A program made the translations under genes and the position numbers. The notes under the pieces are model-generated. The model was not told the DNA's origin, did no database searches, and saw only the letters and a list, made by a program, of their open reading frames with translations. Below, one piece after another: positions 26,926-57,888 of a stretch of DNA of 64,000 bases. Where the stretch lies: contig JAEELJ010000051.1 of NCBI GenBank assembly GCA_016288855.1, positions 1-64,000 on the forward strand. The letters run 5' to 3'. How positions within the stretch are numbered: position 1 is the first letter of the stretch; each line of letters begins with the position of its first letter. The DNA comes from Acholeplasmatales bacterium (GTDB taxonomy: Bacteria; Bacillota_I; Bacilli_A; Acholeplasmatales; Anaeroplasmataceae).

Positions 26926-29628
26926 TAGATTCATCTTATCAATAATTCCACGGCATCTTGGACATAAGCCTAAAGAATCAACTTCTTTAACTATCATCCA
27001 GCATCTTGCACAAGTATCGCCTGTTGCAGCTTCTACTTTAACATCGAACTTGTCGCCTTCCTTAGTTTCTAATTGAGAAACAATTAATAATTGTGCAGCA
27101 TTATCTAAGATTGGAGCAAATGCGTTCTTTGCGTCATTATCTAATGTTAATGTAAGCTTTGCATTGAAGCTCTTTCCGATAACCTTAGCATTTCTTGCTT
27201 CTTCTAATGATTTTAGAATTACTGAACGGTATTCCATGAATTTATCTAGCTTAGCTTCTAATTCATTATCACGACCTAAGTCTGCCTTAGGGAAATCTGT
27301 TAAATAAACATCTTCTTCAGTTTCATATTGTAATGTGTTATAAGCTTCTGACATTGTATGAGGAAGAATTGGTGATAATAATTTAATTAATGCTAATGCA
27401 ATTTGATAGAATACTGTTTGAGTAGATAATCTCTTGTTTGAAGTAGGAGATTCAATATATAAAATATCTTTTGTGAAATCTAAATAGAATGAAGATAATG
27501 TATTTGTAATATAAGCATTTACATTTCTATAAATGTCACCAAATTCATAATTTTCATAGCTATTGATTGTTTCATTAATGAATTCTTGAAGCTTGATATA
27601 CATATACTTATCTACGTTTTCAAGCTTTTCATATGGTAAGCTATTCTTTGGATCAAAATCAGATGTATTAACTAATAAGAATCTTAATGTATTTCTAATC
27701 TTACGATAAGATTCAGAAACCTGCTTTAAGATTTCTTGAGATAAAGGTAAATCTGCTGTGAAATCAACAGATGCAACCCATAATCTTAATACATCAGCAC
27801 CATTAGTTTGGCAAACCTTGTTTGGATCAACACCATTTCCAAGTGATTTTGACATCTTTCTTCCTTGACCATCAATTGTAAAACCATGTGATACAACTGT
27901 CTTATAAGGTGCGATTCCTCTTGTTGCAACAGATGTAATAATTGATGAGTTGAACCAACCTCTATATTGGTCAGAACCTTCAATATATAAATCAGCAGGG
28001 AACTTTAATCCACGACGATCTAATAACATGTATGAAGAACCTGAATCAAACCATACATCCATAATATCTTTTTCTTTTGTGAAGATACCATTTGGAGAAT
28101 GTTCATTCTTATAGCCTTCTGGTAATAAATCCTTAGCTTCTTTTTCAAACCAAACATTTGAACCATATTCACCGAATAAATCAGCAACATGGAAAATTAC
28201 ATCTTTATCAAGAATTGGAGTACCATCTTCACAGTAGAAAATAGGAAGTGGAACACCCCATGCTCTTTGACGAGAAATACACCAATCATGACGATCCTTA
28301 ATCATATTAGAAATTCTTACTTCACCCCAAGTAGGAATCCACTTAACAGCATGGATTTGAGCAAGAATTTGATCCTTAATTGGGTCAATTGATGCAAACC
28401 ACTGTGGTGTAGCACGGAAAATAACTGGCTTTTTAGTTCTCCAGTCATGAGGATATGAGTGAACGATTGGATCTAATAATAATAAAGAACCATTTTCCTT
28501 CATATCAGCCATGATTGCTTCTTCTGAATCAGCATAGAACATACCAGCATACTTACCAGCTTCTTGTGTTTGATAACCATGATTATCAACAGCAACCATT
28601 ATATCTAGACCATATTTCTTACCAGCAACATAGTCATCTTCACCATAACCTGGTGCGATATGTACAAAACCTGTACCATCAGTTGTAGTAACATAGTCTG
28701 CGTTGATAACTGGTGATACTCTATCATATAATGAATGCTTATAATGTAAGCCTTCTAATTCAGCACCAGTATAATGCTTTAAATCCTTTACATTTTCTAA
28801 TGATAATTTTGTAACTAATGCTTCTTTTAATTCAGATGCACATAATAATTTACCAATAGATGTTTCTAATAATACATAATCAATTTGAGGACCTGCAGCA
28901 ACAGCAAGGTTACATGGAAGAGTCCAAGGAGTTGTTGTCCAAATTAAAATATATGCATCTTTTAATTCATCTTTTCCATCAGTAATTTGGAAACGGAAAT
29001 AAATAGAATTAGATTTAATATCTTTATATTCGATTTCTGCTTCTGCAAGTGCTGATTCACTTGATGGTGACCAATAAACTGGCTTTAATCCCTTATAAAT
29101 TAAACCCTTTTCAACCATCTTACCAAATACAATAATTTGGTCCTTTTCGAAATCCTTTGTTAATGTGATATAAGGATGATCGAAATCACCTAATACACCT
29201 AAGCGCTTGAATCCAACCTTTTGGCGTTCAACCTGTGACATAGCGAAATCATAGCATAGTTTTCTAAATTCTACGATTGGCTTATCCTTTCTTGAAACAC
29301 CCTTCTTTTGTAATGCATTTTCAGTTGGAAGACCATGAGTATCCCAACCAGGAATATATTCTGATTTATAACCATTCATGTTATGGTATCTAACAATTAT
29401 ATCCTTTAAAATCTTATTTAATGCATGTCCTAAATGGATATCACCATTTGCATATGGAGGACCATCATGAATAGTATATTCACGCTTTCCTTCATTCTTT
29501 CTAATTCTCTTGTTATAAAGATCAATTTCTTCCCATTTTGCTTCGATATTAGGTTCTTTTTGTCCAAGATTACCTCTCATTTCGAAAGCACTATTACCCA
29601 TGAATAGGGTATCTTTAAAATCTGCCAT
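26917..29628 (-). CDS. ileS: Isoleucyl-tRNA synthetase
   Basis: Class Ia synthetase that charges tRNA-Ile and edits valine. The 903-aa protein has the HIGH-type motif HLGH (residues 65-68), the editing domain (IWTTTPWTLPCNLA), KMSKS in GRKMSKSLGNG, and a C-terminal zinc finger (CARCW...CPRC). This C-terminal zinc form is the common bacterial type. A T-box leader with an Ile specifier lies upstream. No terminator follows; the next promoter starts inside its last codons. Confidence 0.98.
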   Translation of the reverse strand: MADFKDTLFMGNSAFEMRGNLGQKEPNIEAKWEEIDLYNKRIRKNEGKREYTIHDGPPYANGDIHLGHALNKILKDIIVRYHNMNGYKSEYIPGWDTHGLPTENALQKKGVSRKDKPIVEFRKLCYDFAMSQVERQKVGFKRLGVLGDFDHPYITLTKDFEKDQIIVFGKMVEKGLIYKGLKPVYWSPSSESALAEAEIEYKDIKSNSIYFRFQITDGKDELKDAYILIWTTTPWTLPCNLAVAAGPQIDYVLLETSIGKLLCASELKEALVTKLSLENVKDLKHYTGAELEGLHYKHSLYDRVSPVINADYVTTTDGTGFVHIAPGYGEDDYVAGKKYGLDIMVAVDNHGYQTQEAGKYAGMFYADSEEAIMADMKENGSLLLLDPIVHSYPHDWRTKKPVIFRATPQWFASIDPIKDQILAQIHAVKWIPTWGEVRISNMIKDRHDWCISRQRAWGVPLPIFYCEDGTPILDKDVIFHVADLFGEYGSNVWFEKEAKDLLPEGYKNEHSPNGIFTKEKDIMDVWFDSGSSYMLLDRRGLKFPADLYIEGSDQYRGWFNSSIITSVATRGIAPYKTVVSHGFTIDGQGRKMSKSLGNGVDPNKVCQTNGADVLRLWVASVDFTADLPLSQEILKQVSESYRKIRNTLRFLLVNTSDFDPKNSLPYEKLENVDKYMYIKLQEFINETINSYENYEFGDIYRNVNAYITNTLSSFYLDFTKDILYIESPTSNKRLSTQTVFYQIALALIKLLSPILPHTMSEAYNTLQYETEEDVYLTDFPKADLGRDNELEAKLDKFMEYRSVILKSLEEARNAKVIGKSFNAKLTLTLDNDAKNAFAPILDNAAQLLIVSQLETKEGDKFDVKVEAATGDTCARCWMIVKEVDSLGLCPRCRGIIDKMNLLK

Positions 29629-29639
29629 ATTTTTCCTCC

Positions 29640-29880
29640 TAAATAATAAAAAAACCTTAGATTTTATCTAAGGACGAATTATCGCGGTACCACCTTAGTT
29701 CTATGAATAGTATTCATAGCACTCATTATCCTTTAACGCAGGTATACGTTTCTAGTTACTTAGTTTCACTAAAAAAGCTCCTCCAGTGATCCGAATATTA
29801 TACAATATCATTTTACACCAACCAATGACTCTCTAAGATTGTGTTTAATATTCAAGCTGGTATCAGCCTCTAAACGAATT
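29640..29880 (-). promoter_or_regulatory. T-box leader of ileS (Ile, AUC specifier)
   Basis: On the minus strand: AGAGAG and GGTTGGTG stem-I elements, specifier ATC (29788-29790) followed by a purine, and the T-box AGGTGGTACCGCG (29683-29695). An antiterminator can compete with the terminator at 29647-29673. Uncharged tRNA-Ile should allow readthrough into ileS, which matches the specifier. Confidence 0.95.
29647..29673 (-). terminator. T-box regulated terminator
   Basis: CCTTAGAT/ATCTAAGG hairpin (29655-29662 with 29666-29673) with seven T on the minus strand, immediately downstream of the T-box. Confidence 0.92.
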
Positions 29881-48109: not shown

Positions 48110-49219
48110 TTATTGGCTAATTAATCTATAGCCATTTGTATCTAATTCATTTAAGTTCAAAGTTTCATAGTTAATATTTAATTCAAAATTTGAATTATCA
48201 AATGTAAGTGGAATATTAAATGTGTCAGTTATAAAGCTATTACTATTAAATCCTAAAACCTTAATTTTATTAGGTCTCATTTTAGATGCCTGTATTGTTA
48301 ATTCTAAAAGGCCATTTGTAGTTGTTTTATTACCTGTAAATTCATTTATATCAACTAAGAAAGTAATTTCATCATTTGATGCATTTTTAATTGAAATATT
48401 ATACTTATTTATCAATTCTTTATCTAAATATAGTGAAGGTGTTATGTAATCATTAATATCAGTATTCATAATGTCATATATGAAATTATTAAATAATAAT
48501 ATACTATTATCACCTATCATTGATAAAACATTCTCTTTAGTTGAAGCTATTTTTAAATTTTTAGTAAAATTAAAATATTTAGCTATATTATCATATTCAT
48601 CAGGTAATACTAATGTTATTAACGCAGTAGGAATAATATTTTTTTCTCCAGTATGTAGGTAAACTAAATCAGAATCATTTAAGGTTTGGGCATCTAAATC
48701 AAATCTGAATGGCTTACCATTAAGTAATTCAACTTCTTCTCTAATACTTTGGTCTGATGTTAAATCTTCTGCTCCTAAGTTTAAATCGGATTTTAGATTT
48801 AATAAAAAGTCAAAATTATCAATTATAGCCTCTTTTGCCTCAGTTACATCATTTTGATTAATTTCATCTTCTAAAGATGGAATATTATATTTTTTATATT
48901 CAAATTCTTTTGATTCCATACCAAAATCCATATCAATTGAACCATCAAATGATATTTTAATGAAATCATCTTGCGTATATGTGAATTTTCCTTCATATGC
49001 TAAATCAAACTCAATACTATGTGAAGTTTCAATATCAATTTTAGATAAAGATTCTAAAACCTTATATACCTCATCAGTATCTGTTGTTGCATTTACTTTA
49101 TATTCGTTTCCTAAATTATCCTTTAAAATTACATCATTATTCTTATTACATGAAGTAAGAAAAAAAGGCATAATGCTTAATATCGAAAACATACCCAAAT
49201 TCATTATTTTTTTGTTCAT
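48110..49219 (-). CDS. Uncharacterised lipoprotein, divergent member of a local family
   Basis: A 369-aa lipoprotein with lipobox LTSC and Cys24. It is related in layout to the two lipoproteins upstream: a short DNLGNEYKV-type strand after the Cys, a DTDEVYKVLESLS helix and an AKEAIIDNFDFLLNL segment, but it has diverged more. No enzymatic motif is seen; repeated beta strands suggest a lipid- or ligand-binding fold like LolA/LppX-type proteins (inference only). I start at 49219 (AGGAAG 10 nt upstream), not the GTG 9 nt earlier. Co-transcribed with the M3 peptidase. Confidence 0.7.
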   Translation of the reverse strand: MNKKIMNLGMFSILSIMPFFLTSCNKNNDVILKDNLGNEYKVNATTDTDEVYKVLESLSKIDIETSHSIEFDLAYEGKFTYTQDDFIKISFDGSIDMDFGMESKEFEYKKYNIPSLEDEINQNDVTEAKEAIIDNFDFLLNLKSDLNLGAEDLTSDQSIREEVELLNGKPFRFDLDAQTLNDSDLVYLHTGEKNIIPTALITLVLPDEYDNIAKYFNFTKNLKIASTKENVLSMIGDNSILLFNNFIYDIMNTDINDYITPSLYLDKELINKYNISIKNASNDEITFLVDINEFTGNKTTTNGLLELTIQASKMRPNKIKVLGFNSNSFITDTFNIPLTFDNSNFELNINYETLNLNELDTNGYRLISQ

Positions 49220-49243
49220 ACGGTTCACTTCCTACACATATTA

Positions 49244-49271
49244 ATTATAATTAATAAAAATTAAAAATCAA
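49244..49271 (-). promoter_or_regulatory. Promoter of the lipoprotein-M3 peptidase operon
   Basis: Minus strand TTGATT (49266-49271), 16-bp AT-only spacer, TATAAT (49244-49249); nearly the same design as the promoter at 50728-50755. Confidence 0.6.
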
Positions 49272-49306
49272 TCAATTTTGATATCCGAATGATTAATAAT
49301 ATAAAG

Positions 49307-49334
49307 AAAAAGGATTGCAATCTTGCAATCCTTT
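49307..49334 (-). terminator. Terminator of the 444-aa lipoprotein gene
   Basis: AAAGGATTGCA/TGCAATCCTTT hairpin (49309-49319 with 49324-49334) with T-run on the minus strand. Confidence 0.88.
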
Positions 49335-49354
49335 ATATCATAATCAATATTAAA

Positions 49355-50689
49355 TTACTTTAATTCATTTTCGAATAAAGCAACGTAAGTCTTACCAGCT
49401 GTCTTAGTCTTAGTAAACTTAACATCATCATTATACTTGAAATCTAATGATAAGTTGATAGAACCAGACTTAACGATTTCAGCTGATTCAGAAGTTGAAG
49501 CTCCTAAATAAGCATTAACAATTCCCTTAATATTTTCTGTACCAATAGTGATATTCTTTGGTAAACCAGTTGCTGCACCAATCTTTAATGAAGCTGAAGC
49601 ATAAACTGTATCTTCATCAAAAATACCAGTAGTTGTAGTTGCTCCATTATACATAGCAGTAGTTATAGCTATTTGATCACCATGTGGAACAATTTGCTTA
49701 GAATTAATAATTGACATTGCAGTATTTAATAAAGAACCCTTTGCATCAAGTGAGAATGTAACATCTCCATTCTTAACGTCAGAAACCTTAACACCTAACA
49801 TTTGAACACCAGCAACTAATGCTTTGAATTCATCAGATTCATAAACATTTACAGTAGTTGTTTCAGTAGTTGGAGCAATAACAGATGTATCAACACCTAA
49901 CATAGCTAATACTGCGTTAAGATCATTTGTTTGATATGCAGCTAAAAGTGAATTGATTTGTAAAGCATCTTCATCCTTAATGTTTGCTTCACCTAGATTG
50001 TAGTACATATCCACCTTGTACTTGCCATCTTGAGCTTCAGCACCAGGAATTAATTCCTTACCTGACATCATAGTAACAAAATCATAAATGCCTTGTGTAC
50101 ATTCTAAGTTAGCTTCTGTATACATAGTTAAGTTATCTTCTGTAAATGCAGCAGCACTAGCTGTAAGCTTTTGGTTCTTGAATGCAGCTTCATATTGAGT
50201 TGCAGCTTCACCCATTTGTGACTTCATTTCATCACTAAATGTAGCATTTAAAGTTACTTCAGCATTTGCCTTAGCTTCTAAATCAACATTAGATGAAATT
50301 GCATTCTTAGCAGCTGTAATTTGAGCTTCAGTTGGTTCTTCAACAGCACTATAATCAGTGTAGTTGTTCTTACCAATTGTACCATAAACTGATGCAGTTG
50401 CATTTGCACTTAAATCAAAAGATGCACCCATGTAATCAGCCTTAACACTTGCATCTAATGAAGCATCAACACCTACTGAATAATAAGTTTCCTTATTTGA
50501 TGCAGCAGAGCTTGCAACAGCTAATAAAGCCTTTGATACTTCAGTAGCATCATCAGTTACAACAATCTTTACTTCTTTTCCGTCAGCGCCTGTAACAACT
50601 GCTTCGTTATTACCGCCACATGAAGCTAATGTTAATGCAGAAACTGCAACACCAGCAATTGCACCCATACTTAAAAATAATTTTTTCAT
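49355..50689 (-). CDS. Uncharacterised lipoprotein (local family member)
   Basis: A 444-aa lipoprotein, lipobox LASC with Cys24, rich in Ala, Thr and Ser and predicted to be largely beta. It shares with its upstream neighbour a DGKEVKI-like strand, ATEVSKALLAVASS, YYSVGVDAS, TIGKNNYTDY, AKNAISSNVDLEAKAN and the C-terminal YNDDVKF. No catalytic motif is visible. Its codon choice looks more uniform (fewer rare codons, more Ala) than its neighbours, consistent with high expression. It has its own promoter (50728-50755) and terminator. Function unknown; surface or ligand-binding role likely. Confidence 0.75.
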   Translation of the reverse strand: MKKLFLSMGAIAGVAVSALTLASCGGNNEAVVTGADGKEVKIVVTDDATEVSKALLAVASSAASNKETYYSVGVDASLDASVKADYMGASFDLSANATASVYGTIGKNNYTDYSAVEEPTEAQITAAKNAISSNVDLEAKANAEVTLNATFSDEMKSQMGEAATQYEAAFKNQKLTASAAAFTEDNLTMYTEANLECTQGIYDFVTMMSGKELIPGAEAQDGKYKVDMYYNLGEANIKDEDALQINSLLAAYQTNDLNAVLAMLGVDTSVIAPTTETTTVNVYESDEFKALVAGVQMLGVKVSDVKNGDVTFSLDAKGSLLNTAMSIINSKQIVPHGDQIAITTAMYNGATTTTGIFDEDTVYASASLKIGAATGLPKNITIGTENIKGIVNAYLGASTSESAEIVKSGSINLSLDFKYNDDVKFTKTKTAGKTYVALFENELK

Positions 50690-50727
50690 AATTTTAAACC
50701 CACTCCTTCATATTTTAAGTCAATTTT

Positions 50728-50755
50728 ATTATATTCTTAAAATTTTAAAAATCAA
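50728..50755 (-). promoter_or_regulatory. Promoter of the 444-aa lipoprotein gene
   Basis: Minus strand TTGATT (50750-50755), 16-bp spacer, TATAAT (50728-50733). Just upstream, GTGTGATT occurs twice in tandem (about 50764-50782, plus strand), a possible regulator site. Confidence 0.6.
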
Positions 50756-50821
50756 TACAAATCGTGTGATTTTGTGTGATTAATTCGCCACAATATGTTT
50801 TTTTTAGACTTTTTTGAACTA

Positions 50822-52087
50822 TTAATTACCTAATGATGATATTATAGAACCTATGATTGTTGATAAATCAGTTTCATTATAAGTCTTAGAAGAATCCTTA
50901 TTTAGATTAAATTTAACATCATCATTATATATATAAGATGTCTCTGCAGAAGTCTTATATTTTGAGATTTCTACTGAATCTAGAGTTGAAGTACATGATC
51001 CTAAATCAACTTTTGTACTTACTTTTTTAACAAAACCTGTTTCTACGCTATATGTTAAGCTAAAATTACCAATTTCTTGATCATCATCAATTCCTTCAAA
51101 ATCAATTACTTGACTTGAAGATGCATAATCATTACCAATTAAATTAATAAACATATTCTCTATTGCTTTAAATGAATTTCCTTTAACCTTTGCATCAAAT
51201 GTTATTTCATTATTAGCAGTATTTGTTATTTCAATTTCTAATTCCTTAACATATGCTTTAATCATTGTATATGCCTCAGAATCATAAAATTCTGCTGATG
51301 TAAGAATAGATGTATCAAAAGATACATTAGCATATTCAAAAATCATATCAAATAAGCTAGATGATTTAAAAGTATTTAATGCTGTTGATACTTCTGCTGC
51401 AGGAATACTATCAAAAATATCTTTAACAACTATATCCTGTTTAGTTTCATTTGTAGTAGATGTTACAACTGAACCACTCTTAGAATCAGCCTCAGCATAT
51501 AAATCTCCATTATCTAAAAATGCTTTTAAATTAATATCTACATCAATTTTTGTTTCTTGGTCAGTTAAAGAAATATTCGATACATTAATTCCCATTTCTC
51601 TATAATAATCTTTTAATTTTTCAGCATCAACAAGTGCCTTTGAGTTTGTCTTAGAATTAAGTTCTGCTTCAAAATCAATATTAGATTTTAAAGATTCTTT
51701 TGCATTAGCAATATCATCATCAGTTAAAGTATTATTTAAGATTTTATCTTTATAATCAACATAATTATTCTTACCGATAGTTAATTTAGCCACTCCAGAT
51801 ACTTCGCTTGAAGATTCAATTGTAGTATAATTATAATTCGTATTTGTTTCTGTTGCATTTTTTATATCTACACCAATTGAATAAATATTTTTAGCGTTAT
51901 TTGAATAACTATTTGCAACAGCAACTAAAGCCTTAGAAACAGCTTCTTCATCCTTAGTTTTTTCTACTACTAGATCATTACCATCAAGATCTTTTAATGT
52001 TGCCTTTGAATCACCACAAGATGATAATGATAGAGCTGTAGCTGTAACTCCCAATATTGCGCCTAAACTTAAAATAATTTTTTTCAT
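50822..52087 (-). CDS. Uncharacterised lipoprotein (local family member)
   Basis: A 421-aa lipoprotein, lipobox LSSC with Cys24. Clear paralogue of the next gene downstream: LDGNDLVV strand, EEAVSKALVAVANS, IYSIGVDI, TIGKNNYVDY, AKESLKSNIDFEAELN and C-terminal YNDDVKF. More Asn/Asp/Ser-rich and less Ala-rich than its relative. No catalytic motif; mostly beta with the same apparent fold. The stop is followed by a T-rich stretch but no good terminator hairpin, so some transcripts could run on into the neighbour. Confidence 0.72.
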   Translation of the reverse strand: MKKIILSLGAILGVTATALSLSSCGDSKATLKDLDGNDLVVEKTKDEEAVSKALVAVANSYSNNAKNIYSIGVDIKNATETNTNYNYTTIESSSEVSGVAKLTIGKNNYVDYKDKILNNTLTDDDIANAKESLKSNIDFEAELNSKTNSKALVDAEKLKDYYREMGINVSNISLTDQETKIDVDINLKAFLDNGDLYAEADSKSGSVVTSTTNETKQDIVVKDIFDSIPAAEVSTALNTFKSSSLFDMIFEYANVSFDTSILTSAEFYDSEAYTMIKAYVKELEIEITNTANNEITFDAKVKGNSFKAIENMFINLIGNDYASSSQVIDFEGIDDDQEIGNFSLTYSVETGFVKKVSTKVDLGSCTSTLDSVEISKYKTSAETSYIYNDDVKFNLNKDSSKTYNETDLSTIIGSIISSLGN

Positions 52088-52180: not shown

Positions 52181-52204
52181 AAAAAAGGAAGCTTTAGCTT
52201 CCTT
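52181..52204 (-). terminator. Terminator of the jetABC-sepF operon
   Basis: AAGGAAGC/GCTTCCTT hairpin (52185-52192 with 52197-52204), 4-nt loop, T-run on the minus strand right after the sepF stop. Confidence 0.88.
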
Positions 52205-52210
52205 TCCTTA

Positions 52211-52540
52211 TTATGCTTTCTTTAAGTCTTTAACAAACTCTCTTACTGAGCCATCAAGTAAATCTTCTTTTCTTGCAAAAAGATATATATCAGCATCAAT
52301 TCTTAATGCTTTACCATCAAGTGCAACAGCAGCTCCTTGAAAGAATGCAATCATTTTATTACATTCAATTTCATTTAGCTTAGAGAAATTAATAATTAAT
52401 GGACATCCATTTTTTAATTCTCTTACAAGATTTAATGCAAGATGGTCATCATCTTCAAGTTCATTAAAAATAATTTTATCAGCACTTCTTTTTGGTTCTT
52501 CTAGATCAATATCGTCTTCCTTTTTACGTCCAAAAAGCAT
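52211..52540 (-). CDS. sepF: SepF-like cell-division protein without the membrane helix
   Basis: SepF binds FtsZ filaments and normally tethers them to the membrane during septation. This 109-aa protein matches the SepF core (KIIFNELEDDDHLALNLV, GCPLIINFSKLNEIECNKMI, FFQGAAVALDGKALRIDADIYLFA), including the FxxG turn of the dimer face. The N-terminal part before the core is only about 20 charged residues (MLFGRKKEDDIDLEEP), so the usual amphipathic membrane helix is missing or very short. It starts one base after the jetC stop, in the place where jetD would be expected. In most Bacillota sepF lies in the ylm/divIVA cluster near ileS, not beside an SMC operon. Confidence 0.85.
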   Translation of the reverse strand: MLFGRKKEDDIDLEEPKRSADKIIFNELEDDDHLALNLVRELKNGCPLIINFSKLNEIECNKMIAFFQGAAVALDGKALRIDADIYLFARKEDLLDGSVREFVKDLKKA

Positions 52541-52541
52541 A

Positions 52542-55500
52542 TTAATCTTCCTTTCTGATTACTGGTAAAACCTGAGCCTTAGTTCCCTTTCTTACCATTA
52601 CTAATGTTGTATCAGCATATTCTTCAAGAATATTCATTCTTTGTGGAGGACATGCTAAGATAATTTGTAATGGCATTGAGCACATGAAATTCATCATGGC
52701 ACGCATACGGTTACCATCCATCTTATCAAATACTTCGTCGAACATTACAATACCAATTGGATCTCCACCAGCAAATCCAGTCTTAGTATATACACGAACG
52801 AATGATGCAACAATCGCAACATAGAATGGAACCTGTGTTTCACCACCGGATTTTTCCTTAAATACCTTAGAATAAGTCATTGAATCACCATCTTGGTTAG
52901 TAATTCTAATATCGTAATCCATATATGTACGATAATCTGTGAACTTATTAAATGCACCATTAGTATTTAAGTCATCTTGTGAAATAGATTCAAATAATTC
53001 TGAAATTTGTTCATTATACTTATTTTGGAATTCATAAGTAAATAAACCTTGGTTTAAATCAACCATATCAGATGTAACCATATCATAGAATTCAGCATAT
53101 TCCTGTGAACGAGGGAAAATGAATTCATATGTATCATTACCAAATCTAATTCCTCTTAATGTATCATTAATCTTTTGGATTTCTTGTTCAGCTGTTAAGA
53201 TATTATTTCTTAGCTTAGCAATGAAATCTTCTTTGAATACAACTTCAGCAGATTCTCTAGCTTCTCTTACCTTCTTTTCATAAGTGATTAATTCACTCTT
53301 TTCAAGCTTAGATAATTCAGCTAAATACTTATCCATTTCATTTAAGCCAACTGTATAATTTGAATTATACTTGTTGATGAAATCGAATTGCTTTTGATGT
53401 AAGGCATCATCAAGAGTTTTGAAGTTCTTTTCATGAGATTCAAATCTTTCTTGATATTTGCTTAAAGCCTGCTTAAAGCTTTGACCCTTAATAATTTCTT
53501 GATATTCTTGCTTAGCATTTTCAGCAATTACAGCATTATCTCCAGCTAATTCCTTTAACTGTTCTTCTAATTCCTTAAGCTTAATATTATTTGCGTTAAT
53601 AGATTCATTTAATGTTGTAATCTTATTATCAATAGAACCCATATCTCTTGAAACAGTTAATTTCTTTTCATCATTTGACTTAATAGTTAACTGAATCTTC
53701 TGATAATCATCTTCAAGCTCTGTTGGTGTAGCATTCTTTGTACGCTTAGCTTCATTCTTTAAATCTAGGATTGCAGCCTTTTCCTTTTCAAGCATTAATG
53801 CCTTATCTAAGTCAGTAATTAAAGTACGAACATCAATTGAAGATAATAAATCTACTTCTTGAGTTAATGCTTCTATCTTACCATTAACTTCTGTATATTC
53901 CTTCTTAGCTTCAACTGCCTTTTGCATCCAAACTTCTTTTGACTTAGCAGCTGCATTCTTACCCATGAATGGCTTTTCAATATTAGGATTTAATGATGTA
54001 ACAGTATATCCACGATAAATTAAATTATCATTTGTAATAGCTGTTGGATATTTTTCAAGATCCTCTGGCTTATCAACCATGATAACTGAACCACATGTAT
54101 AATTAATAAATGCACGTGCATCAGCATTTTCAGAATCAATGATTGATGCTAATGAGTTTTCTTGGAATGATTGGAACTTAGCAATTTGCTTAGTATTAAC
54201 TAAACCAATACCATATAGGTGGTACTTATTCTTAATTCTTGCATAAATTTGTAATGCTTGATCGAAATATCTAGGTTCAACGATTAACATGAATCTTCTA
54301 TTACCTAAATAATTTTCAATAGTATCAGCCCATGCAGGATTTGTAATTTCACATAATTCAGCAAAAATATGAACTTCTACATCATAATTATAAACTCTCT
54401 TTAAGCCTTCTTTAATTTCTTGACGAAGCTGTGATAATTGAGGGTTATAATTTAATCTATTTTGCTTAGCATTATTAACTGCTGTTGAAATTTGGTTGAT
54501 TGTTGCAATAATTTCATGAACCTTTGCTTCAAGTGAACCTAATTCCTTATTCTTAGATGCAGCAATAGTCTGAATTTGGTTATCGAAATCTGTTAATCTA
54601 ACTTTCATTTCATTAACTGATTGTTGATTGATAACAGTTAAATTCATACCTTGAACTTGAGAATAAATCTTTTCATTAGATAATCTTCTTAAATCATTTA
54701 AGATATCCTTAAAATTAGTTACTCTCTTTAAGAATTGTTCCTTATTTGCTTCTAATGATTCAATATTAGATTGTGTCTTATTGATTTCTCTTGAAACATA
54801 TTCTTGAGCCTTAAATTGATCATTATTTTGTAATAAATTATATACTTCTCTAGCTCTATCCTGTAAAGCAAGATTTTCTTTATCTAAGTCTCTTAATTGT
54901 TGTTCGAAATCTAATCTATTTTGCTTTTCTCTTTCAATTTGTTGCTTAGCAGCTTTGATATTGTTTCTTACTTCTTCAACATCAAATAAACGCATTAAAT
55001 ATTCTAAATAGCTCTTTTGCTCTTGGATTTTTAAAATTTCTTGATATACTAAATCAATTTCTCTTAAGTCAGCAATCTTTGCTTGAATTTGCTTTAATGT
55101 AGTTTCTAATTCCTTATAAGCACGAATTGAATCCTTAATTGCAGTAACATCAATTTCTTTTTCTTCTAGGATGTTTTGATAAATGAATTCCTTAACATCG
55201 GCAATAGGCTTAAATGCTAAAGCCTTTGGAATTAATTTATAGAAATCTTCAGAAATTGATCCAAATGCATTTCTAAATCCTCTCTTTGCTTCCTTCTTAG
55301 TTAGATAGTATTCAAATAAAGGATTATGCTTTCTAAATTCTACACAGCCATAGATAGTTTTTTCTTCAGAAATAAACATTTTATCATCCATTGGCTCTAA
55401 GCTCTTATAGAAAACAGTCTTAACAGGTGATAAGTCACCGAATGCATCAATTACAGCACCTACAGTGAAATCCTGTCCTGTCTTTTCATCATGGAATTGT

Positions 55501-55778
55501 AAAGCGATATGACCTGAAACATCACCATTTCTTAAATATTCCTTGTCATCCATACCAAGCTTACATTTTACGTAACCTCTTAAATCACGCTTACCTTTTT
55601 CATTAGCTGCAAGGTTGAATACTGTATCACCTGCAGTTAATACATAAGTAATTGCATCCATGATAGTTGATTTACCTGAACCGTTAGGTCCAGATAATAA
55701 TGTATTACCATTTACTGTAATAGTTTCATTAGAAAGGTAATGCCAATTAATTAGTCTTATTTTAACAAGTTTCTTCAT
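52542..55778 (-). CDS. jetC: Wadjet-type SMC ATPase JetC
   Basis: Large SMC/MukB-like ATPase of 1078 aa, the motor of the Jet loop-extruding complex. Walker A GPNGSGKST is at residues 30-38, followed by two long coiled-coil arms (about 235-450 and 620-900) around a hinge-like domain (about 460-610, containing AWADTIENYLGNRRF). The C-terminal half of the ATPase has signature SGGET at 977-981 and Walker B FDEVFDKMD with Asp1014 and Glu1015, so it should hydrolyse ATP. It begins 2 nt after jetB. In Wadjet systems JetABC extrudes circular DNA and JetD cuts it; no JetD is adjacent here. Confidence 0.92.
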   Translation of the reverse strand: MKKLVKIRLINWHYLSNETITVNGNTLLSGPNGSGKSTIMDAITYVLTAGDTVFNLAANEKGKRDLRGYVKCKLGMDDKEYLRNGDVSGHIALQFHDEKTGQDFTVGAVIDAFGDLSPVKTVFYKSLEPMDDKMFISEEKTIYGCVEFRKHNPLFEYYLTKKEAKRGFRNAFGSISEDFYKLIPKALAFKPIADVKEFIYQNILEEKEIDVTAIKDSIRAYKELETTLKQIQAKIADLREIDLVYQEILKIQEQKSYLEYLMRLFDVEEVRNNIKAAKQQIEREKQNRLDFEQQLRDLDKENLALQDRAREVYNLLQNNDQFKAQEYVSREINKTQSNIESLEANKEQFLKRVTNFKDILNDLRRLSNEKIYSQVQGMNLTVINQQSVNEMKVRLTDFDNQIQTIAASKNKELGSLEAKVHEIIATINQISTAVNNAKQNRLNYNPQLSQLRQEIKEGLKRVYNYDVEVHIFAELCEITNPAWADTIENYLGNRRFMLIVEPRYFDQALQIYARIKNKYHLYGIGLVNTKQIAKFQSFQENSLASIIDSENADARAFINYTCGSVIMVDKPEDLEKYPTAITNDNLIYRGYTVTSLNPNIEKPFMGKNAAAKSKEVWMQKAVEAKKEYTEVNGKIEALTQEVDLLSSIDVRTLITDLDKALMLEKEKAAILDLKNEAKRTKNATPTELEDDYQKIQLTIKSNDEKKLTVSRDMGSIDNKITTLNESINANNIKLKELEEQLKELAGDNAVIAENAKQEYQEIIKGQSFKQALSKYQERFESHEKNFKTLDDALHQKQFDFINKYNSNYTVGLNEMDKYLAELSKLEKSELITYEKKVREARESAEVVFKEDFIAKLRNNILTAEQEIQKINDTLRGIRFGNDTYEFIFPRSQEYAEFYDMVTSDMVDLNQGLFTYEFQNKYNEQISELFESISQDDLNTNGAFNKFTDYRTYMDYDIRITNQDGDSMTYSKVFKEKSGGETQVPFYVAIVASFVRVYTKTGFAGGDPIGIVMFDEVFDKMDGNRMRAMMNFMCSMPLQIILACPPQRMNILEEYADTTLVMVRKGTKAQVLPVIRKED

Positions 55779-55780
55779 TA

Positions 55781-56383
55781 TTAATTAGCCTCCCCATTGT
55801 TTTTATTATATTCATCCTGTGTAATCTTATTAATAGTATTAACAACCATTGTAATATCTTCAGTATTAATAGCCATTAAGATTGTAGGTAAAATAACTAA
55901 TTTAGTAGATGATGATTGAATATCACCAGTTACTTCAATTAAATTATATTTTCTAAATAAACGAATTGCGCTTATTAAATCTGTTTTATTTAATTTTCTC
56001 TTAATTTCTAGATAATCATATTTTTCATGAATATCAGAAATAGCACAAACTATATTTTCATTTAATGAAGTATCCTTCATCTTCTCATTATATAAAAGTC
56101 TTAAAATTAATAATACAATAGTTTCATCTCTTCTAAGTTTCAATGAGAATGCATTTGTAGCACCTGATAACATTACTGAGCCAGTAGGCATATCTAATGT
56201 TATTTCAAGTCCTAGAATTTTAAAGAATTCATCAAATAAATCTTTATAGCTCATTAAGAAGTAATAAGCTTCCTTATTGTCTCTCTTATCTCTTGATAGG
56301 AAAGTAGATTGTAATAACTTATTAGCAGTGTCTTGGAACTGTTGCTGCTGTGTTACGGTCATTTTTTCTAGTGCGTCTAACAT
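55781..56383 (-). CDS. jetB: Wadjet-type winged-helix subunit JetB (DUF4194, MukE-like)
   Basis: A 200-aa kite-type subunit that binds JetA and the JetC neck. Family cues are LSRDKRDNKEAYYFLMSYKDLFDEFF, the beta hairpin LEITLDMPTGSVML, and LRRDETIVLLILRLLYNEK followed by a winged-helix-like stretch (LNKTDLISAIRLFRKYNLIEV). AGGAGA precedes the ATG. It sits between jetA (16 nt away) and jetC (2 nt away), the standard Wadjet order. Confidence 0.9.
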   Translation of the reverse strand: MLDALEKMTVTQQQQFQDTANKLLQSTFLSRDKRDNKEAYYFLMSYKDLFDEFFKILGLEITLDMPTGSVMLSGATNAFSLKLRRDETIVLLILRLLYNEKMKDTSLNENIVCAISDIHEKYDYLEIKRKLNKTDLISAIRLFRKYNLIEVTGDIQSSSTKLVILPTILMAINTEDITMVVNTINKITQDEYNKNNGEAN

Positions 56384-56399
56384 TCTATTATCTCCTAAT

Positions 56400-57824
56400 T
56401 TATAATGTTCTTCTAATTACAAAATCTTTCATCTTGTAATGTTCATTCTCAACCATATCAGTTAAGATATTGAAATAATATCCTTTTTCACTTGCTTGAA
56501 TAATACAATATACAACCATCATAAATATTTCATCTGGTGTATCAAAATCGATTATATCTGAAGCCTTAAATTCACCATTAGATTCATTGTCAGCCAAGAA
56601 TTTAGCAATTTCTTCTTCATTATAATTGCTCTTAAACTGTGCCATGAATTCTTCATCAAGTTCAAATCCATCTAGACCAACCTCATCTAACATCTGATTA
56701 TAGTTTCTAGAATAACCACCACGAGGCTGATATAATGATTTTTCTTGATCATAAATCTTATATAGAGGTAAATTATATAAGCCTTCAATGATTCTCATGC
56801 ACTTATCAATCTTGTCTTCCTTCTTACTCTTCTTAATGAAATTTAAGATAGTATTAAGCTTGCCAATTGTATTATCATCCTCTGATAATAAGAATTTAAC
56901 CTTACCGATTGTAGAATTAATATAATCTCTGTTCTTATTATCGATTTCTGTAATGAATTCTTCTAATGCGTTAAAAGCATCGATTACTTCATCGATATTT
57001 CTTACTGCCTTATAAACAGCTTGTTCATGATTTTGACAAACAGGGACATAATTCATTGCAACATCATTAATTATAGATTCATTAGCTTGCATGTTTTGAA
57101 GCTTAGTGATTATAGATAGACGATATCTATCAATGTTATCTGAAATTTTAAGCTTAACGTACATATTATCATATACATTAGTCTTATAATCCATTAGCTT
57201 TTCCATCAAGTCTTTTAATTCATTATTATTAACTACTGAATTAATATAATCCTTCATTCTAGCGTCTAGTCTTCTGATAGCACGAATAAGCATTCTTGTA
57301 TCTTGATAAACTAAATTAAATGTAAGACCATAATCCTGGATATCATCCTGATTCAATAATGAATAAATTGAATAAATGTAACCTTGATATTCATTTGGAT
57401 TAACATAATTTTCAGGTAACTCATCATCCTCATATTCGATTGCTGGATAAGCATTAATGATAGCTTCACATATTGTAATAGCTACATCACTAAAGTTTAG
57501 AATTTCATCATAGTCGTTAGAAACGTCTACGTAAATCCATCCTGTCTCTTCCATTTTTCTTAATATGAAATTTGCAAGTTCCCTATTAGTTTTTGGATCA
57601 GCTTCTTCATCTTCCTTGTCATCTTCTTCAACATCATATAAGTATTGCTTATTAGTGTCTAAAAAATAAACAAGGTCGTCAACTACTATCTTCTTATCGA
57701 TACCTAAGATTGTACCTGTTTCGTATACTTTAAATACCTGAAGTATACTTGCAAGATATATTCTTCTGTTCTTTGATGATAGTAGTGAGAAAAAATTATC
57801 TGGGACCATATCGAAAAAATCCAT
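56400..57824 (-). CDS. jetA: Wadjet-type kleisin subunit JetA (DUF5716)
   Basis: A 474-aa MukF/kleisin-like subunit, first gene of the operon. The N-terminus MDFFDMVPDNFFSLLSSKN is very close to known JetA starts and begins a winged-helix domain; a helical middle region follows (about 150-330), then an acidic linker (about 340-430) and a C-terminal domain that would contact JetC. A strong G-rich ribosome site (GGGGGAT) precedes the ATG. The promoter upstream is overlapped by two inverted repeats. Confidence 0.92.
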   Translation of the reverse strand: MDFFDMVPDNFFSLLSSKNRRIYLASILQVFKVYETGTILGIDKKIVVDDLVYFLDTNKQYLYDVEEDDKEDEEADPKTNRELANFILRKMEETGWIYVDVSNDYDEILNFSDVAITICEAIINAYPAIEYEDDELPENYVNPNEYQGYIYSIYSLLNQDDIQDYGLTFNLVYQDTRMLIRAIRRLDARMKDYINSVVNNNELKDLMEKLMDYKTNVYDNMYVKLKISDNIDRYRLSIITKLQNMQANESIINDVAMNYVPVCQNHEQAVYKAVRNIDEVIDAFNALEEFITEIDNKNRDYINSTIGKVKFLLSEDDNTIGKLNTILNFIKKSKKEDKIDKCMRIIEGLYNLPLYKIYDQEKSLYQPRGGYSRNYNQMLDEVGLDGFELDEEFMAQFKSNYNEEEIAKFLADNESNGEFKASDIIDFDTPDEIFMMVVYCIIQASEKGYYFNILTDMVENEHYKMKDFVIRRTL

Positions 57825-57854: not shown

Positions 57855-57877
57855 CTATTATTTTAACAAAATAATAG
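57855..57877. repeat. 10-bp-arm inverted repeat over the jetA -10 region
   Basis: CTATTATTTT (57855-57864) and AAAATAATAG (57868-57877) form a perfect inverted repeat with a 3-bp centre. The -10 element (57860-57865) lies inside it. AT-rich, so partly expected by chance, but perfect over 20 bp. Confidence 0.6.
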
Positions 57878-57888
57878 GATGTTTGCAA
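57860..57888 (-). promoter_or_regulatory. Promoter of the jetABC-sepF operon
   Basis: Minus strand TTGCAA (57883-57888), 17-bp spacer, TAAAAT (57860-57865), about 30 nt before the jetA ATG. Confidence 0.65.

Follow-up and report, generated by a model that had tools for sequence, protein, structure and literature searches.

JetD-less JetABC linked to sepF in Anaeroplasmataceae: a probable Wadjet-derived chromosomal condensin in place of Smc-ScpAB

The JetABC complex of the known Wadjet systems is an ATP-driven loop extruder, and both MukBEF and MksBEF have been proposed to derive from Wadjet, in the case of MksBEF through the loss of JetD (PMC10586767). In Corynebacterium glutamicum, Wadjet is placed by DivIVA (PMC10123090). 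For the phytoplasmas, the assignment of smc has been called unclear (PMC3322544). Here, we describe a jetABC operon without jetD, joined to sepF, in a 64,000-nucleotide stretch (the window) of the Acholeplasmatales contig JAEELJ010000051.1. The bacteria concerned are gut inhabitants with small genomes. The genome to which the window belongs measures 1.77 Mb and is estimated to be 100% complete.

The operon lies on the minus strand at positions 52211-57824 and has the order jetA-jetB-jetC-sepF, with intergenic gaps of 16, 2 and 1 nt. The kleisin subunit JetA (474 aa; 56400..57824, minus strand) matches PF18982 at 6e-65 (220 bits, cutoff 26) and PADLOC's JetA1 with 341 bits. JetB (200 aa; 55781..56383, minus strand) is a KITE/MukE-like subunit recognized by DUF4194 (8e-29) and by PADLOC JetB1 (189 bits), while JetC (1078 aa; 52542..55778, minus strand) is an SMC ATPase that PADLOC JetC1 (PDLC00519) covers over its full length with 1007 bits. 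The last gene (52211..52540, minus strand) encodes the cell-division protein SepF, of 109 aa (PF04472, 2.6e-9; 37.6 bits, cutoff 27). Coordinates and profile searches therefore agree with an earlier note on this DNA, which had described four tightly packed genes for JetA-, JetB- and JetC-like proteins and a SepF core protein. That note had also set them between one promoter and one terminator. The terminator is strong, being an intrinsic one with a 12-pair stem and a T run (52181..52208, minus strand); the candidate promoter (57860..57888, minus strand) is a weak consensus match of 9/12 (TTGCAA-17-TAAAAT, with TG before the second hexamer), and matches of such strength occur no more often than in shuffled sequence. 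All 54 assessable genomes of the family share this gene order, so the operon is not due to chance. We infer that jetABC and sepF are co-transcribed as one predicted unit. The flanking genes differ from genus to genus; in the window they are housekeeping genes (ychF, pgm and his, names taken from reading the sequence), with no defence island. Downstream of the operon, at 48110-52087, are three consecutive ORFs of 372, 444 and 421 aa that resemble lipoproteins with signal peptides, the latter two being mutually related.

Compared with type I Wadjet (JetABCD), the window's JetA, JetB and JetC each fall clearly within the corresponding subunit family, the order jetA-jetB-jetC is the same, and the ATPase motifs are kept. 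As the earlier note had read from the sequence, JetC retains an intact Walker A (GPNGSGKST, 55665..55691), ABC signature (KSGGETQ, 52833..52853) and Walker B (VMFDEVF, 52728..52748), all on the minus strand. Of 92 JetC proteins in the alignment, nearly all show the Walker A pattern G-x-N-x-x-G-K-[ST]. All three motifs are intact in almost every copy, with departures from consensus among the most divergent (e.g. L116 and L097). The solved structures related to this protein are those of JetC (8dk1, 8dk2 and 8dk3). Unlike type I Wadjet, the window's system has sepF in its operon, has no JetD either beside it or in the genome, and is universal and vertically inherited where Wadjet is patchy. MukBEF and MksBEF share its architecture class, and MukBEF likewise stands in for Smc-ScpAB. 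These JetABC nevertheless score as Jet and weakly as MksE or MukB: the window's proteins reach 26.4 bits with MksE (cutoff 27) and 17 bits with MukB (cutoff 23), both below threshold, and a weak MksE match above threshold was obtained for one JetB from family f24 and for one JetB that is phytoplasma-like. They also differ from MukBEF and MksBEF in having arisen separately, in several lineages of small-genome Bacilli.

Orthologous jetC is found in 55/55 genomes of the window's GTDB family, spanning seven genera at 49-97% identity, with a few of these orthologs being contig-edge fragments. The JetC tree tracks the genera of the family, and the patchy, mobile distribution of a defence gene is not what we see among these 55 genomes. 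At the level of the order, JetC is present in 132/160 genomes; several members of family f2 are assembled in one or two contigs, so assembly gaps do not account for the pattern. At three phytoplasma-like loci of g18 (L050, L051 and L052), jetB-jetC is kept and JetA is not detected by profile in any of them; in L050 and L051, the gene upstream of jetB-jetC is a HAD-hydrolase-like ORF. These loci perhaps encode a kleisin-less JetBC, or else JetA lies elsewhere.

The earlier note had remarked that JetD is missing next to JetC and had concluded that the system does not cut plasmids. The first point extends to the whole of the window genome, where the JetD_C profile finds no match, and a plasmid-cutting role is accordingly very unlikely. 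JetD_C is matched in 5/55 family genomes. In G008, G021, G023 and G033, jetD directly follows a second jetC of 26-29% identity and completes a jetABCD set, which is a separate, ordinary Wadjet; the family thus does encounter true Wadjets and maintains them separately from its shared jetABC. In G045 (L072:947-2212), a JetD-like ORF occurs without any jetABC and with an uncharacterised ORF of 329 aa in front of it; it perhaps belongs to another nuclease system. The N-terminal IFDR motif of JetB was considered as a mark of JetD contact, but is missing in Bacilli JetB with or without JetD, which makes the test inapplicable.

A JetABC without JetD might still act against plasmids, either through compaction and silencing of small circles or with an unrelated nuclease recruited from the host. 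The type I JetABC does sense small circular DNA (PMC10586767), and the PADLOC models assign all three proteins to Wadjet. We nonetheless regard this explanation as improbable: patchy defence genes would not be expected in every genome of a family with a tree that runs along genera, the neighbours are housekeeping genes, and several genomes carry a complete jetABCD in addition. Furthermore, Smc-ScpAB is missing, so that some condensin is to be expected.

The absence of Smc-ScpAB was judged from ScpB and SMC_hinge profiles. ScpB has no match above cutoff in any of the 55 family genomes or the 160 genomes of the order, while the same search recovered it from Bacillus subtilis, Lactococcus lactis and nine other controls; the lone match in the order (G071, 26.5 bits in a 70-aa frame) is below cutoff and was set aside. 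SMC_hinge matches in 20 genomes looked Smc-like at first, but all those above cutoff fall within jetC ORFs. It is the middle of JetC, in f1 and f2 genomes, that scores as SMC_hinge in these 20; hence, a count of Smc that relies on the hinge profile alone can go wrong in this group. Outside jetC, no SMC_hinge match in the order is above cutoff, the single one elsewhere being weak, partial and sub-cutoff. The genome search for smc-scpA-scpB that the earlier note had proposed was carried out for ScpB and the SMC hinge; it yields neither in the window genome beyond jetC, and JetC is the sole SMC-type condensin found by these searches. JetABC is built from different subunit families than Smc-ScpAB, and the likeness between the two would lie in their presumed role as main chromosomal condensin. 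In the order, neither ScpB nor JetC was found in g21, most of f4 and part of the phytoplasma-like g18; condensin may be dispensable in these genomes, or a third kind may exist. FtsZ was not found in the 744 kb searched of the 1770-kb window genome.

We favour, as likely, the reading that this jetABC is a housekeeping chromosomal condensin, descended from Wadjet, devoid of JetD and replacing Smc-ScpAB. The Jet-based chromosome organiser suggested in the earlier note draws its backing from the presence of jetC in 55/55 genomes, the lack of ScpB, SMC hinge and JetD, and the intact ATPase motifs; the role in chromosome organisation and all of the biochemistry are inferred.

Across the class, JetC and ScpB mutually avoid each other. 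The two are shared by 14 genomes where 55 would be expected (Fisher p 7e-21, a value that is overstated, as the genomes are related and phylogeny was not corrected for). JetD is found in 12 of these 14, adjoining jetC in 10 and elsewhere in 2. Among the 58 genomes outside the order with JetC and without ScpB, only 4 have a JetD match, one of them below cutoff; in G431 and G436, JetD accompanies a second jetC. In f12 genomes and one f17 genome, JetD-less JetABC coexists with ScpB, and loss of JetD alone is therefore no proof of takeover. The f12 loci in question (L084, L086 and L088-L091) have JetD-less jetABC in ScpB-positive genomes, and jetABCD is also present in G187, G196 and G212. The f12 state may represent an intermediate stage before takeover.

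JetD-less jetABC in genomes without ScpB is not confined to the window's family, and several others in the class have it as well. In unrooted JetC trees, these JetD-less, ScpB-less copies form at least the following groups: f1+f3+f5+f23+f24 (support 100); f2; f11+f21+f26-28; g110, which is a second f11 group; and f7. JetD-bearing copies intervene between them. A single clade of all orphan JetC is rejected by the AU test (p-AU 3e-39), which was run without the long-branch rows, the g110 group being among those omitted. We take the direction of change to be loss of JetD rather than gain because JetABCD is widespread, and transfer of jetC between lineages could have played a part. Judged from sequence, it is very probable that JetABC took the place of Smc-ScpAB as chromosomal condensin on more than one occasion.

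The fourth gene of the operon encodes an unremarkable SepF. The protein is single-copy in the window genome and is of ordinary size and fold, with no extra domain. Its AlphaFold model (mean pLDDT 90) superposes on SepF of B. subtilis and C. glutamicum, with Foldseek matches to 8hzq, 3zih and 6sat at E about 1e-4 and core-chain rmsd of 1.0-1.3 Å, and the SepF-like assignment of the 109-aa protein is confirmed by this comparison with crystal structures. The N-terminus, where a membrane-binding helix would be expected in SepF, has a conserved M-x-L-F-x-K-K-K start, in a region of low model confidence. With its Pfam family, its fold and its ancestral neighbours ylmH and ileS, the gene resembles sepF of Bacillus and Corynebacterium and of the ylm-sepF-ileS cluster; unlike in that cluster, jetABC and not the ftsZ side now stands upstream.

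The linkage of sepF with jetC is conserved. In all 54 assessable genomes of the family, representing seven genera, sepF comes directly after jetC, which answers affirmatively the survey of relatives that the earlier note had called for. The gap between the two, measured at 39 loci, ranges from -23 to +67 nt with a median of -1, and 37/39 fall within -14..+10 nt. In the basal genus of the family (L058), the arrangement is jetABC-sepF-ylmH-ileS, with ylmH confirmed by Pfam, and other genera retain sepF-ileS. Outside the family, ileS follows sepF in all five sepF loci sampled from f2, f3, f4 and f5; the f4 locus L122 reads ftsZ ... sepF-ylmH-ileS, and in genomes of f2 and f4 the distance from sepF to FtsZ, which lies upstream, is about 1-2 kb. 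This order in other genera and families indicates that jetABC came upstream of an old sepF-ylmH-ileS cluster. The cluster has since come apart in the window's genus: ileS, the ancestral downstream neighbour, is about 23 kb from sepF (26929..29655, minus strand; 70% identity by tblastn to the IleRS of L061, whose gene is just downstream of sepF in L061), and a ylmH homolog is on another contig. There, sepF is still with jetC, and the jetC-sepF link has outlived that between sepF and ileS.

The earlier note had described SepF as standing in place of JetD, and its gene does occupy the position of jetD, which would be consistent with SepF having become the effector of the Jet complex. We find this highly improbable and the description misleading. 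JetC of the same clade is already without JetD in f3, f5, f23 and f24, where no sepF is alongside, and the SepF of the operon is the cell's only one, orthologous to the ancestral SepF of the sepF-(ylmH)-ileS cluster beside which jetABC settled. SepF as a nuclease substitute is likewise rejected. From these comparisons, jetABC appears to have arrived upstream of sepF once JetD had already been lost.

The persistence of the junction makes functional or expression coupling of jetC and sepF plausible. The proximity could instead be a historical accident held in place by polar effects, a possibility that we take seriously without favouring it, and one compatible with a condensin role; ylmH and/or ileS do follow sepF in f2, f3, f4, f5 and several f1 genera, yet the window's genus and g5 have split other parts of the cluster and never jetC from sepF, and these two genes overlap or almost do. 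A further idea, put forward in the earlier note, is a checkpoint linking the state of the DNA to division, whereby JetABC would bind SepF and unsegregated DNA would keep SepF-FtsZ from dividing the cell. This too is compatible with a condensin, and the conserved operon is what remains in its favour: the junction overlaps or nearly does so in 54/54 genomes and outlasts sepF-ileS in the window's genus. DivIVA, a scaffold of division and pole, positions the C. glutamicum Wadjet (PMC10123090), so that contact of the motor with division scaffolds is not far-fetched. Against it, JetABC of the same clade does without adjoining sepF in f3, f5, f23 and f24, SepF carries no added domain, and co-expression by itself accounts for the operon. 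Hence, we hold a checkpoint to be rather unlikely.

Returning to the condensin reading, we propose that the family's jetABC would descend from a JetABC motor like that of type I Wadjet, without the JetD nuclease, which would have taken over from the Smc-ScpAB missing across the order. If it behaves like JetABC and MukBEF in purified form, the complex would be loaded onto the chromosome and use ATP hydrolysis for loop extrusion, such that sister chromosomes are compacted and separated; without JetD, finished extrusion of a circle would have no cutting outcome. Within this family, the genes of the motor would have been joined upstream of the sepF-(ylmH)-ileS division cluster and have formed one predicted transcription unit since. 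The most likely reason for this linkage would be co-expression at a fixed ratio of a chromosome-segregating motor and SepF, the membrane tether of FtsZ, and physical contact between JetABC and SepF at midcell is possible. The most far-reaching version, in which repeated nuclease loss in small-genome Bacilli and displacement of Smc-ScpAB by JetABC as the sole chromosomal condensin are combined, in one family, with a direct JetABC-SepF contact that couples segregation to septum placement, is doubtful.

By sequence criteria, the jetABC described here is probably a variant of the Wadjet/MukBEF-type condensins and not a Wadjet defence system, and annotating it in these genomes as Wadjet defence is probably an error. 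We found no account of JetD-less JetABC replacing Smc-ScpAB in a literature search whose coverage excluded most subscription journals and preprints. MukBEF-like condensins have been proposed, in the absence of a clear example, to stem from complexes of plasmid defence after loss of the nuclease (PMC10586767); here, the route from defence motor to condensin seems to have run in several independent lineages, up to complete replacement of Smc-ScpAB. Among these lineages are relatives that seem to be Acholeplasma species amenable to culture, which makes the idea testable in living cells, along with the question of which changes follow when a motor that senses plasmids has to serve the whole chromosome. 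For the phytoplasmas, JetABC may provide a candidate condensin.
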